A stretch of DNA of 64,000 bases, from NCBI GenBank assembly GCA_012728835.1, contig JAAYEJ010000003.1, positions 1 to 64,000 on the forward strand, in the 5' to 3' direction. Positions within the stretch are counted from its first letter, which is position 1, and each line of letters starts with the position of its first letter. Made by a program: the position numbers and the translations under genes. This document shows, in pieces, positions 34,554-39,245 of the stretch. This stretch comes from Candidatus Brocadiaceae bacterium. Lineage in GTDB: Bacteria; Planctomycetota; Brocadiia; SM23-32. Below the pieces are notes generated by a model, which was not told the origin of the DNA, did not search any database, and worked only from the letters and a program-made list of their open reading frames with translations.

Positions 34554-35191
34554 CACCGACCGGAGACAAAACGCGCCGTGCGCCGGTCATCGGCCTCGTG
34601 GGCGGCCTGGCCGCCGGCAAGAGCACCGTGGCCCGCTTGATGCGCGAGCGCGGAGCGTGCGTGGTCGATGCGGATCGCATCGGACACGAGGTGCTGGAGC
34701 TTCCGCACGTCCGTACGGCCCTGACGGACGCATTCGGCCACGGGATACTCGGCCCGGACGGGCGTGTGGACCGCGGGCGGCTGGCCGCCGTCGCCTTCGG
34801 CACGCCCGAGAGGGTGGAACGTCTCAACGGAATCGTTCATCCCATCATCATCCAAAGGATCAGTGATCTGTTGAGGGAGTTCAGCGCCCGGCCGGACGTG
34901 CCGCTGGTGGCGCTGGACGCTCCGCTGCTGATGGAGACGCAACTGCACAGGGACGTCTGCCGCGCGCTGCTGTACGTCGAGGCGCCGGAGGACGAACGGC
35001 GCCGGCGCGCCGCGCAGAACCGGGGCATCGCGCCCGAGCAGTTCGCCGTGCGCGAACAGGCGCAGATGCCCACCGACGTCAAGGCCGCAGTGGCCGACTA
35101 CACAGTCATCAATACAGGCTCAATCGAGGAGCTGGCCAGGCAGATCGATCGGATCTGGCCTGACCTGTGCCGACTTTCAGGAGGTGTTTGA
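34550..35191 (+). CDS. coaE: Dephospho-CoA kinase
   Basis: It phosphorylates dephospho-CoA in the last step of CoA synthesis. The 213 residues have the P-loop [16 protein letters not shown] and [14 protein letters not shown], with the lid region [13 protein letters not shown]. The GTG start overlaps the polA stop (GTGA), with GGAGG upstream, and its own C-terminal codons carry the ribosome binding site of rho. This polA-coaE-rho order is common in bacteria. Confidence 0.92.
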
Positions 35192-35192
35192 C

Positions 35193-36641
35193 TTGGCCGC
35201 AGACAGCGAACGCAACACGTCGAATTCGTCGGGCAAGAACGGAAGAAAGCGGATGCCGAACGGACGCCGACCGCGGAACAGCAACGGAAACGGCAACAAC
35301 GCCGGCGGCGGCAACGCCGCCGGCGGGAATCGCGCGGCGAACACCCAGGTGGCCACCGAGACGCCCGCGAGCCAGTTCCACATCGTCGACCTGCAAAGGA
35401 TGACGGTCAAGCAACTGCTTGAGGCATCCAAGGAAGAGGGCCTGGAGAACACGAGCGGGCTCAAAAAGCAGGACCTGATCTTCCAGATCCTGAAGAAGCG
35501 CGTCTCCAAGAGCGGCGCCATGTACGGCGAGGGCGTCCTGGAGGTGCTGCCCGACGGAGGCTTCGGGTTCCTGCGCTCGCCGGACTACAGCTACATGCCG
35601 AGCCCGGACGACATCTACGTCTCGCCCAGCCAGATCCGCCGCTTCGGCCTGCGCACGGGCAACCTGGTCACCGGCCAGATCCGGCCTCCGAAGGAGAACA
35701 AGGAGCACTACTTCGCCCTGCTGAAGGTCGAGGCCGTCAACTACCAGAGCCCCGAGACGGTCGCGAACCTGACCGTCTTCGAGGACCTGACCCCGTTCCA
35801 CCCGACCGAGCGCCTGATGCTGGAGCGCGACGGCAAAGAACTCGACATGCGCATCGTCGATCTGGTCACCCCGATCGGCAAGGGCCAGCGCGGCCTGATC
35901 GTCGCCGCCCCGCGCACCGGCAAGACCATCCTGCTGCAGCAGATCGGCAACTCCATCGCCAGGAACCACCCCGAGGTGCAGTTGATCATCCTGCTGATCG
36001 ACGAACGCCCCGAGGAAGTCACCGACATGCAGCGCACCGTGCCGGCCGCGCAGGTCATCAGCTCCACCTTCGACGAGCCCGCCAGCCGGCACGTGCAGGT
36101 CGCCAAGATGGTCATCGAGATGGCCCGCCGGCAGGTCGAATACGGCAAGGACGTCGTGATCCTGCTCGACAGCATCACGCGGCTGGCCCGGGCGCACAAC
36201 ACGGAGGTGCCCCACAGCGGGAAGATCCTCAGCGGCGGCGTCGAGGCCGGCGCGCTGCAGAAGCCGAAGAAGTTCTTCGGCAGCGCCCGCAAGCTCGAGG
36301 AAGGCGGCAGCCTGACCATCATCGCCACCGCCCTGATCAACACCGGCAGCCGCATGGACGAGGTCATCTACGAGGAGTTCAAGGGCACGGGCAACATGGA
36401 GCTGCACCTGGACCGCGCCCTGGCCGACCGGCGCATCTGGCCGGCCCTGGACATCACCCGCAGCGGCACCCGCAAGGAAGAACTCCTGCTGGACCCGGAG
36501 GAGCTGCGCCGCATCCAGCTCCTGCACCGGATGTTGAACGAGATGAACCCCATCGACGCCATCGAACTGATGCGCAACCGGCTCTCCAAGACCCAGAACA
36601 ACGCCGAATTCCTGATGAGCATCAACGTGGACGGGCGCTGA
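35193..36641 (+). CDS. rho: Transcription termination factor Rho
   Basis: The 482 residues form the hexameric RNA helicase that ends transcription. After an Asn/Gly-rich low-complexity insert (about 15-50; [20 protein letters not shown]), the Rho N-terminal domain begins at [13 protein letters not shown]. The RNA-binding cold-shock-like part is [18 protein letters not shown], Walker A is [18 protein letters not shown], and the core includes [16 protein letters not shown] chose a TTG start: AGGAGGTG lies 6 nt upstream and coaE ends one base before it, while the GTG at 35184 is part of that binding site. A 5-bp hairpin holds its stop. Confidence 0.9.
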
Positions 36642-36772
36642 GCGCCGGCGGACCCGCCAACCGGGCGGGCGATGGAGCATGCGGGCAGAGGCGTCCCGCC
36701 TCCGACCTGTCCGCAAAGGGACGGGGACGGGCGTGCGAAGGGATGGCCATGCGCCGCATGGCCTCTCGGCGC

Positions 36773-36801
36773 TTGACGCCGGGGGCCGGCGGCCCTATAA
36801 T
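36773..36801 (+). promoter_or_regulatory. Strong promoter for the ilv leader and ilvBN
   Basis: TTGACG (36773-36778), a 17-bp spacer, and a perfect TATAAT (36796-36801). The predicted start is about 36808-36812, so the leader peptide would be nearly or fully leaderless. Confidence 0.8.
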
Positions 36802-36811
36802 GGTGTGCATC

Positions 36812-36859
36812 ATGGATCGGACTGCAACCCCACTCAGCGCAATCGTCCTAGTAGCGTAG
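36812..36859 (+). CDS. Branched-chain amino acid leader peptide (15 aa)
   Basis: The peptide reads MDRTATPLSAIVLVA and then TAG. The final codons ATC GTC CTA GTA form an Ile-Val-Leu-Val run, one codon before the stop's Ala, covering all three branched-chain amino acids. The ATG is 10 bases after the -10 box, with no room for a ribosome binding site, so leaderless initiation is likely. Position, composition and the hairpins that follow match classic ilv attenuator leaders (inference from known enterobacterial systems). It would sense charged branched-chain tRNAs by ribosome stalling. Confidence 0.75.
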   Translation: MDRTATPLSAIVLVA

Positions 36860-36898
36860 GCCCCTTCCGCGCTCGGATGCGATCCGAGCGGTGGGGCC
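36859..36898 (+). promoter_or_regulatory. Attenuator stem 1:2 (protector/pause hairpin)
   Basis: GGCCCC (36859-36864) pairs with GGGGCC (36893-36898). Inside, CGCTCGGAT (870-878) pairs with ATCCGAGCG (882-890) around a GCG loop. The left arm begins in the leader-peptide stop codon, so a ribosome stalled on the Ile-Val-Leu-Val codons would cover it. Confidence 0.75.
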
Positions 36899-36943
36899 GA
36901 GAGGGTTGTTGTCCGTTCCGTCGAACGGCGCGAATAGGCCCTC
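36893..36943 (+). promoter_or_regulatory. Alternative antiterminator pairing
   Basis: The right arm of the first hairpin, GGGCC (36894-36898), can instead pair with GGCCC (36937-36941). The adjacent GAGGG (901-905) is also able to pair with CCCTC (939-943). Both use the left arm of the terminator, so this pairing excludes termination. A small independent hairpin, CCGTTC-CGTC-GAACGG (913-928), lies in the loop. Confidence 0.6.
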
Positions 36944-36977
36944 CCGCCTCACACAGGTGGAGGGCTTTCTTCTTTTT
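36938..36977 (+). terminator. Intrinsic terminator of the ilv attenuator
   Basis: GCCCTCC (938-944) pairs with GGAGGGC (959-965), extended by CCT/AGG across a small internal loop. It is followed by the U-rich run TTTCTTCTTTTT (966-977). It is the only clear hairpin-plus-U-tract terminator I found in the window and lies 64 nt before ilvB. Confidence 0.8.
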
Positions 36978-37041
36978 GGGGCGCGTGGAGGTCCCCCGGA
37001 GCCCCGGGCTCCGGAACCGCGCCAGGGAGGAACCGGCCGAC

Positions 37042-38721
37042 ATGGGCAGGACTGGAGCCAACATTCTGGTTGATTCCCTGTTGGAGCATCAGGTCGAACA
37101 CGTCTTCGGACTGCCGGGCGGGGCGGTGATCGCCCTCTTCGACGTCCTCTACGATTCGCCCCTGAAGGTGATCCTCACACGCCACGAGCAGGGCGCCGGC
37201 CACATGGCCGACGGCTACGCGCGCGCCACGGGCAAGGTCGGCGTCTGCATCGCCACCAGCGGCCCCGGCGCGACGAACCTCGTCACCGCCATCGCCACGG
37301 CCCACATGGACAGTGTGCCCATGGTCGCCCTGACCGGCCAGGTGAAGACCCACCTGATCGGCAACGACGCCTTCCAGGAAGCCGACATGACGGGCATCAC
37401 CCGCCCCGTGACCAAGCACAACTACCTGGTCAAGGACGTCGCGGACCTCGCCCGCGTGGTCAAGGAGGCCTTCCACATCGCCTCGACCGGCCGGCCCGGC
37501 CCCGTCCTGATCGACCTGCCCAGCGACGTCATGACGGACACCCTCGAGGACGAACCCGACACGACCATGCGCCTGCCCGGCTACAAGCCGACGACCGGCG
37601 GCCACGTGCGCCAGATCCAGCGCGCCGCCGAGGCGATCAACGCCGCCGAGCGCCCGGTCCTCTACGTCGGCGGCGGCGTCATCTCCGCCGGGGCCAGCGA
37701 GGAACTCCGGGAACTGGCCCGCAAGGCCAACATCCCCGTCACCACCACGCTGATGGGCATCGGCACGTTCCCGGTCGACGACCCCCTCTCCCTGCACATG
37801 CTCGGAATGCACGGCACGGTGTATGCGAACTACGCCGTCACGCACTGCGACCTGCTGATCGCCGTCGGCGCCCGCTTCGACGACCGGATCACCGGCAAGG
37901 TCGAGAAGTTCGCCAAGAAAGCGAAGGTCGTCCACATCGACGTCGACCCGACCTCCATCAGCAAGAGCGTGCCGGTGGACATCCCCGTCGTCGGCGACGC
38001 CCGCAGCGTGCTCTCGGTGCTGCAGACCCTGGTGGAGCACCGCGAACGCAAGGAGTGGATGGACCGCATCCTCGCCTGGAAGCGCGACTTCCCCCTCACC
38101 TACAAGCGGCAGCCCGGCGTCATCAAGCCGCAGGCCGTCATCGAGAAGGTCTCCGAACTCACCGGCGGCGAGGCCATCCTGTGCACCGACGTCGGACAGC
38201 ACCAGATGTGGGCAGCCCAGTACTACCGCTTCCGACGGCCGCGCACGTTCCTCAGCTCCGGCGGCCTCGGCACAATGGGCTACGGCCTGCCGGCCGCCAT
38301 CGGCGCCGCCTTCGGCTGCCCGGACCGCAAAACCGTCCTGATCACCAGCGACGGCTCGATCCAGATGAACATCCAGGAGATGGCCACGGCCGTCTACCAC
38401 AAGCTGCCCATCGCCCTCGTCGTCCTGAACAACGGATACCTCGGCATGGTGCGCCAGTGGCAGGAGCTGTTCTTCAACCGGCGCTACTCCCATACGCACC
38501 TGGCGCCGGCGAACCCGGACTTCATCAGGCTCGCCGAGGCATACGGCGCGCGCGGCATCGCCGTGAGCGATCCCGACCAGGTCGAACCGGCCCTCCGGGA
38601 AGCCCTCGCCGTCGGCGACGGCCCCGTGCTCCTGGACGTGCGCACGGCCCCCGAGGAGAACGTGTTTCCCATGGTGGCCGCCGGCCAGCCCATCGACAAG
38701 ATGATCGGCGGCATCGCATGA
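37042..38721 (+). CDS. ilvB: Acetolactate synthase, large (catalytic) subunit
   Basis: A ThDP enzyme of valine, leucine and isoleucine synthesis that joins two pyruvates, or pyruvate and 2-oxobutyrate. The 559 residues have the N-terminal PYR domain (FGLPGGAVIALFDVLYD; HEQGAGHMADGYARATG with the catalytic Glu), the central FAD domain (YVGGGVISAGASEELREL) and the C-terminal PP domain (SDGSIQMNIQEMATA and NNGYLGMVRQWQELFF). The chosen ATG has GGGAGG 11 nt upstream; the long open frame further upstream overlaps the leader. It is controlled by the attenuator at 36812-36977 and followed by ilvN after 38 bp. Confidence 0.95.
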   Translation: MGRTGANILVDSLLEHQVEHVFGLPGGAVIALFDVLYDSPLKVILTRHEQGAGHMADGYARATGKVGVCIATSGPGATNLVTAIATAHMDSVPMVALTGQVKTHLIGNDAFQEADMTGITRPVTKHNYLVKDVADLARVVKEAFHIASTGRPGPVLIDLPSDVMTDTLEDEPDTTMRLPGYKPTTGGHVRQIQRAAEAINAAERPVLYVGGGVISAGASEELRELARKANIPVTTTLMGIGTFPVDDPLSLHMLGMHGTVYANYAVTHCDLLIAVGARFDDRITGKVEKFAKKAKVVHIDVDPTSISKSVPVDIPVVGDARSVLSVLQTLVEHRERKEWMDRILAWKRDFPLTYKRQPGVIKPQAVIEKVSELTGGEAILCTDVGQHQMWAAQYYRFRRPRTFLSSGGLGTMGYGLPAAIGAAFGCPDRKTVLITSDGSIQMNIQEMATAVYHKLPIALVVLNNGYLGMVRQWQELFFNRRYSHTHLAPANPDFIRLAEAYGARGIAVSDPDQVEPALREALAVGDGPVLLDVRTAPEENVFPMVAAGQPIDKMIGGIA

Positions 38722-38759
38722 GGCCCACCGCTCCTACCGCACGAAAGGCGCGCACACAC

Positions 38760-39245
38760 ATGGCAAAGCACATCATCTCCGCCCTGGTCGCCAACCGCCC
38801 CGGCGTCCTGGCCCACGTGGCCGGGCTGTTCAGCGCGCGTGGATTCAACATCGACAGCCTGGCCGTCGGCGAGACCGAGCAGCCCGACCTCAGCCGCATG
38901 ACCATCGTCGTGGACGGCGATGAGGCCATCCTCGAACAGGTCCGCAAGCAGCTCGGCAAGGTCATCGACATCGTCAAGATCCAGGACTACAGCGCCATCC
39001 CCCACGTGGAGCGCGACCTGGCCCTGGTGCGCGTGCACGCCCCGCAGGAGCGGCGCAGCGCCATTCTGGAACTGGTCGACATCTTCCGCGCCCGCGTCGT
39101 CGACGTCGGCCGCAACGACCTGATGATCGAGACCTCCGGCGCCGAGGAGAAGATCGAGGCGTTCCTGGACCTCCTGCGCCCCTTCGGCATCCGCGAGATG
39201 GCCCGCACCGGCCGCATCGCCCTGGCCCGGGCCCCGCGCGACTGA
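38760..39245 (+). CDS. ilvN: Acetolactate synthase, small (regulatory) subunit
   Basis: The 161 residues carry an N-terminal ACT domain (ISALVANRPGVLAHVAGLFS, then RGFNIDSLAVG) and the C-terminal ALS_ss_C domain (EERRSAI-type helix QERRSAILELVDIFRARVVD). It binds IlvB, stimulates it and gives valine feedback inhibition in the family. The symbol ilvH would be equally valid. Spacing and orientation show an operon with ilvB. A 13-bp inverted repeat lies 15 bp after its stop. Confidence 0.93.
   Translation: MAKHIISALVANRPGVLAHVAGLFSARGFNIDSLAVGETEQPDLSRMTIVVDGDEAILEQVRKQLGKVIDIVKIQDYSAIPHVERDLALVRVHAPQERRSAILELVDIFRARVVDVGRNDLMIETSGAEEKIEAFLDLLRPFGIREMARTGRIALARAPRD

Follow-up and report, generated by a model that had tools for sequence, protein, structure and literature searches.

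A predicted ribosome-mediated transcription attenuator with a probably leaderless leader peptide upstream of planctomycete ilvBN

Does translation of a very short open reading frame (ORF) decide whether transcription reaches the acetolactate synthase genes of a planctomycete? The question is raised by a locus in the window, the 64,000-nucleotide stretch analysed here, which is part of a 3.07-Mb draft genome of a Candidatus Brocadiaceae bacterium. At 230 nt upstream of ilvB it shows, in this order, a promoter, the ORF MDRTATPLSAIVLVA, a hairpin beginning at its stop codon and a terminator, and ilvN follows ilvB (Table 1). Both IlvB and IlvN score above the NCBIfam curated cut-offs, so that the gene under control makes the amino acids that the leader would sense. 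Ribosome-mediated transcription attenuation of ilvBN is the best explanation of this arrangement, a prediction that we hold with considerable confidence; translation of the leader peptide would then probably determine whether transcription stops or continues. Such an attenuator, with a probably leaderless peptide, had been proposed in a preliminary description of this DNA, and we retain that proposal while replacing the details of its pairing scheme.

Table 1. Features of the ilvBN leader region and the genes downstream (window coordinates; RNA pairings are predicted)
Feature	Position	Strand	Details
Sigma-70-type promoter	36773-36801	+	-35 TTGACG 36773-36778; 17-nt spacer; -10 TATAAT 36796-36801
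Segment 1 (5' half of ORF, start codon included)	36810-36835	+	22 bp predicted with segment 2
Leader ORF	36812-36859	+	MDRTATPLSAIVLVA and stop; 15 residues; ATG at 36812
Stop-codon hairpin	36859-36898	+	outer stem GGCCCC:GGGGCC; inner stem CGCTCGGAT:ATCCGAGCG
Antiterminator extension GUGGGGC	36891-36897	+	pairs with 36946-36952 once the stop-codon hairpin has lost its outer stem
Segment 2	36899-36924	+	pairs with segment 1 in the termination state
Antiterminator inner hairpin	36909-36933	+	from the predicted pair list
Intrinsic terminator	36936-36977	+	stem 36936-36967, -20.4 kcal/mol, then U-rich tail
ilvB, acetolactate synthase large subunit	37042-38721	+	TIGR00118, 847 bits (cut-off 538); Shine-Dalgarno AGGGAGGA
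ilvN, acetolactate synthase small subunit	38760-39245	+	TIGR00119, 216 bits (cut-off 57)

The predicted fold of the free RNA from 36808 is dominated by a 22-bp helix between segments 1 and 2, which closes a loop containing the 40-nt stop-codon hairpin and leaves the terminator free. This duplex has a predicted energy of -32.0 kcal/mol, where shuffled sequences average -21.6 and 16 of 2000 do as well, and the RNA 36808-36980 folds with a z-score of -4.85. In the alternative predicted state the first part of segment 2 (36899-36907) forms an antiterminator with the terminator arm 36937-36944. The predicted pairings are mutually exclusive, in keeping with the 1:2, 2:3, 3:4 logic first ascribed to the leader, with different partners: in the 1:2 helix, 36899-36924 joins the ORF's 5' half. 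The hairpin-plus-U-run terminator originally described was recovered, its stem and tail coming from folding; a simple terminator scan listed none.

We represented the ribosome as an unpaired mask that reached back 12-20 nt from the P site and forward 13-16 nt. When codons 7-12, which include Leu8, Ile11 and Val12, occupy the A site, most footprints cover segment 1, and 36899-36907 then pairs with 36937-36944. The antiterminator probability reaches 0.92-0.93 at Ile11 and Val12, as against 0.01 without a ribosome and 0.04 with the ribosome at the stop codon. In the latter two states the segment 1:2 helix is still intact by the time the terminator arm is made, and termination is predicted for the full-length transcript (0.86-0.87). 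Stalls at Leu13 and Val14 give antitermination if the mask trails by about 18-20 nt, and not with shorter trailing edges. At transcript ends 36953-36958 the equilibrium also permits the antiterminator (0.7-0.9) with a ribosome at the stop codon, and some leak is therefore to be expected.

These folds bear directly on the scheme as first drawn, in which the stop-codon hairpin acts as a protector and its freed 3' arm forms GGGCC:GGCCC with the terminator arm. That complementarity exists on paper (36894-36898 and 36937-36941), and the 3' arm of the hairpin does enter the extended antiterminator, though with 36946-36952; the GGGCC:GGCCC pairing itself, however, never exceeds a probability of 0.01 in the states tested. 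Moreover, a ribosome at Ile11 or Val12 falls short of the hairpin, which stays closed in that stall until the antiterminator extends, whereas the hairpin is opened furthest when the ribosome has reached the stop codon, and the switch would then work with the wrong sign. We regard this version as very improbable. Folding with and without a ribosome mask, the check suggested at the outset, accordingly returns a ribosome-dependent switch that operates through another pairing.

The switch score was defined only after a first inspection of the folds; by this score none of 400 sequences in which the terminator was kept and the rest shuffled equalled the observed switch at transcript end 36951. When several transcript ends were averaged, 3 of 1200 shuffles reached the terminator score, 10 of 1200 the antiterminator score and 0 of 1200 both. 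As a positive control, the Escherichia coli trpL leader under identical masks gave a high antiterminator probability at Trp11 and Arg12 and a low one at the stop codon and without a ribosome, in agreement with the published trp control region (PMC1183508). E. coli ilvL, ivbL and most other leaders tried, including planctomycete ones, gave no clean switch by the mask method, and for this reason we claim no mechanism for the other planctomycete leaders discussed below.

The sequence and its predicted folds show the elements and their exclusive pairings; the transcript start, translation, the ribosome footprint and the amino acid response are inferred. In the mechanism that we propose for the ilvBN attenuator, transcription would begin 3-5 nt 5' of the leader start codon and the ribosome would load at the 5' end of the RNA without a Shine-Dalgarno sequence. 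With branched-chain aminoacyl-tRNA plentiful, it would proceed to the stop codon, allowing segment 1 to emerge behind it and pair with segment 2, and the terminator would be free to form. An untranslated leader would terminate as well, because the segment 1:2 helix sequesters the start codon too. Under shortage of Leu, Ile or Val, the ribosome would halt at Leu8, Ile11 or Val12, perhaps also at Leu13 or Val14, and cover segment 1; segment 2 would then be free to take up the terminator's 5' arm, allowing transcription of ilvBN. The design is compact in that the start of the ORF forms part of the switch, and this doubling as a switching segment may be the local novelty of the leader.

The proposed entry of the ribosome depends on where the transcript starts. 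The promoter, initially called perfect, matches 11 of the 12 consensus bases, one short of that description, and is the sole promoter-like site in the 900 bases 36400-37300 scanned on both strands (shuffles mean 0.1); the same scan found no second consensus promoter between the terminator and ilvB. The promoter spacing would place the transcript start at about 36807-36809, and, with the leader ATG 10 nt past the -10 box, the 5' UTR would measure 3-5 nt, too short to hold a Shine-Dalgarno sequence. No in-frame start codon occurs within the ORF after the ATG, and the leader ORF is probably leaderless. The frame is nevertheless open from upstream (MAMRRMASRRLTPGAGGPIMVCIMDRTATPLSAIVLVA), and the Shine-Dalgarno-like GAAGGGATGG precedes in-frame ATGs near 36749, which would suit a longer, Shine-Dalgarno-led leader ORF that attenuates likewise, its transcript coming from a promoter further upstream or from readthrough out of rho. 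Against this, the scanned stretch holds no promoter-like site upstream of 36773, and the longer ORF would contain the near-consensus promoter inside it; we judge this alternative very improbable. A pattern search of the whole genome for an ATG closely behind such promoters returned 14 places. At two of these, L222 and L224, the ATG opens a long ORF (at least 500 codons) 6-9 nt behind a near-consensus promoter. One product resembles Lon (MTAQKARTEVLPVLALRGTVVFPG...) and the other is a membrane protein; both are likely leaderless genes, and the promoter-ATG arrangement is not unique to the leader.

The putatively leaderless ORF ends, as originally described, in an ATC-GTC-CTA-GTA run (ATC11 at 36842, GTC12 at 36845, CTA13 at 36848, GTA14 at 36851); a fifth branched-chain codon, CTC8 at 36833, had been overlooked when sensing was attributed to four codons. 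The run closes with two adjacent codons, CTA and then GTA, that are among the rarest in neighbouring genes: counted over the window's long genes, CTA makes up 3 of 1504 Leu codons (0.2%) and GTA 24 of 1336 Val codons (1.8%). Rare control codons are a recognised feature of attenuators, as with the CUA codons in the leu leader of E. coli. Chance readily supplies runs of four I/L/V codons within short ORFs: 30 dinucleotide-shuffled versions of the 64-kb window held about 6 each. Coincidence of such a run with a terminator or promoter was seen in 0 of the 30 shuffled windows, and the real window has one, with both. The about 0.65 Mb sampled from this genome, in partly overlapping pieces, yielded no credible attenuator other than the ilvB one. 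The leader matches no Rfam family above the curated cut-off. A T-box or ppGpp riboswitch was also considered and rejected, there being no riboswitch family among the Rfam matches up to E = 10.

In our class sample of 75 genomes, 70 contain ilvB. The ilvBN genes lie behind rho in the window (35184-39245), whereas in the family-mates compared (L006-L008, L010, L253-L258) they lie behind a spoVG-like gene; the spoVG of the window's genome is on a different contig. This gene order indicates that the ilvBN operon has moved in the window's lineage. The preliminary description had looked to relatives for conservation of the codon run and pairings, and within the family this expectation finds no support: the four family-mates with an intact region upstream of ilvB (L006, L007, L008, L010) have the spoVG-like gene there and no attenuator. 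Behind rho, family-mates have another gene or nothing comparable, and no leader. As family-mates have none in either place, the leader is specific to the window's lineage among the genomes compared, and the family offers no orthologous leader in which to compare covariation or codons. With the leader DNA as a query, relatives gave matches solely to the ilvB coding sequence. That the terminator is plain and constitutive, or part of the rho transcript, and the I-V-L-V run a chance ORF would fit both the family-mates that do without an attenuator and the frequency of such runs in shuffled sequence, but the leader, placed before ilvB with a strong promoter on one side and the gene on the other, includes two rare codons and has a predicted ribosome-dependent switch seldom equalled in shuffles, which makes this reading very improbable.

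We also surveyed ilvB leaders elsewhere. Our leader-plus-terminator detector is unspecific on its own (15 of 133 and 7 of 60 reversed controls were also positive), and other planctomycete leaders were therefore chosen by reading the promoter, Shine-Dalgarno sequence, codon run and terminator. Shine-Dalgarno-led ilvB leaders with terminators were thus found in an order-mate (L129, genome G009), two class-mates of family f3 (L012 and L018) and three genomes of family f43 (L148, L153 and L169). The leader of L129 (338-489), upstream of a second ilvB copy, starts with TTG and ends in ...NRVPVVVRAVALRRPRA, with the terminator about 27 nt past its stop; the other ilvB copy of that genome (L009) has no such leader. 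Those of L012 (G010) and L018 (G012), MSRNLLLALAPITAAVTPVTVGLVLVRAAGGG and MSRILLGTLGLTTATTGIVVVVALVRSPGGG, precede strong terminators, and their ORF ends appear complementary to the terminator arms. The f43 leaders, MNKFLMNLSVVVLVVLVVVVTT, MIQSVGMVVLVAVGESIAIDHIRMEP and MFATLAIISVIIEPIAIGDAMHGPA, contain I/L/V runs and are likewise followed by terminators. All six have the same layout as the window leader, namely promoter, I/L/V-rich ORF, terminator and ilvB, but differ from it in being 22-33 residues long, in having the ORF well behind the promoter and mostly a recognisable Shine-Dalgarno sequence, and often in longer V/L runs; they show no evident sequence similarity to it. In four loci of family f53 (L155, L157, L159, L160) a G+C-rich terminator-like hairpin immediately before ilvB follows a short leader that encodes no evident I/L/V peptide, possibly reflecting a different kind of control. 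Among Desulfobacterales and other Deltaproteobacteria (L061, L071, L082, L086, L108, L109) we noticed that a related type of ilvB leader recurs (...NLI.LILLLV..II.C...RG); the sequence around its stop, GGGGTTGATAATGG, can pair with the terminator arm, and it has no Rfam match. When twelve other leaders were compared with Rfam, none scored above cut-off.

Attenuation of ilv genes has so far been described in enterobacteria and Actinomycetota, and upstream-ORF attenuation of ilvB has already been proposed to be widespread (PMC10272879). Our literature search found no description of such an ilv attenuator for Planctomycetota; the type of switch is familiar, and the window's leader is apparently undescribed in this phylum. 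The case suggests that leaderless attenuators have independent origins, and that in deep planctomycete lineages termination can be coupled to the ribosome and translation can closely trail transcription. As a tentative scenario, for which we would claim somewhat less than an even chance, a leaderless "trailing-edge" attenuator would have originated in a single lineage of planctomycetes as ilvBN took up its position behind rho. Its segment 1 would consist of the first leader codons, start codon included, such that ribosome entry, sensor and anti-antiterminator are combined in one 5'-terminal sequence, convergent with actinobacterial ilvB leaders.

In the enterobacterial trp, ilvGMEDA and ilvBN systems the position of the ribosome sets exclusive 1:2, 2:3 and 3:4 pairings, as predicted here; their leader ORFs are, in contrast, Shine-Dalgarno-led and begin well downstream of the transcript start, and those of the ilv systems, with 32 residues, are also longer. 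The Mycobacterium tuberculosis ilvB1NC operon has an upstream ORF with four regulatory codons (LVVI), a terminator about 40 nt before ilvB1 and a premature transcript (PMC13236596). That attenuator has been shown experimentally, whereas the window's is predicted, and in its model a ribosome at the stop codon masks the antiterminator RNA, whereas in the window the trailing edge of the ribosome would free segment 1 (PMC13236596). The closest known case is that of Corynebacterium ilvBNC, from a different phylum and with no evident sequence relation. Its leader (the ilvB-II motif) has an ORF of 15-17 residues with I/L/V mainly at four positions, which spans most of the upstream stem P1, and a terminator before ilvB; in C. 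glutamicum the 15-residue IlvL MTIIRLVVVTARRLP has its transcription start site one nucleotide from the leader start codon (PMC11857589, PMC10272879). Leaderless translation and four-codon sensing, which had seemed odd features of the window's peptide, therefore have a precedent there. Unlike the Corynebacterium leader, that of the window, known here from its sequence, has a 40-nt hairpin nested within the long predicted segment 1:2 helix. In ORF length, four I/L/V positions, a 5' stem and a terminator stem the window leader agrees with the ilvB-II motif, which speaks for likeness and not for homology.
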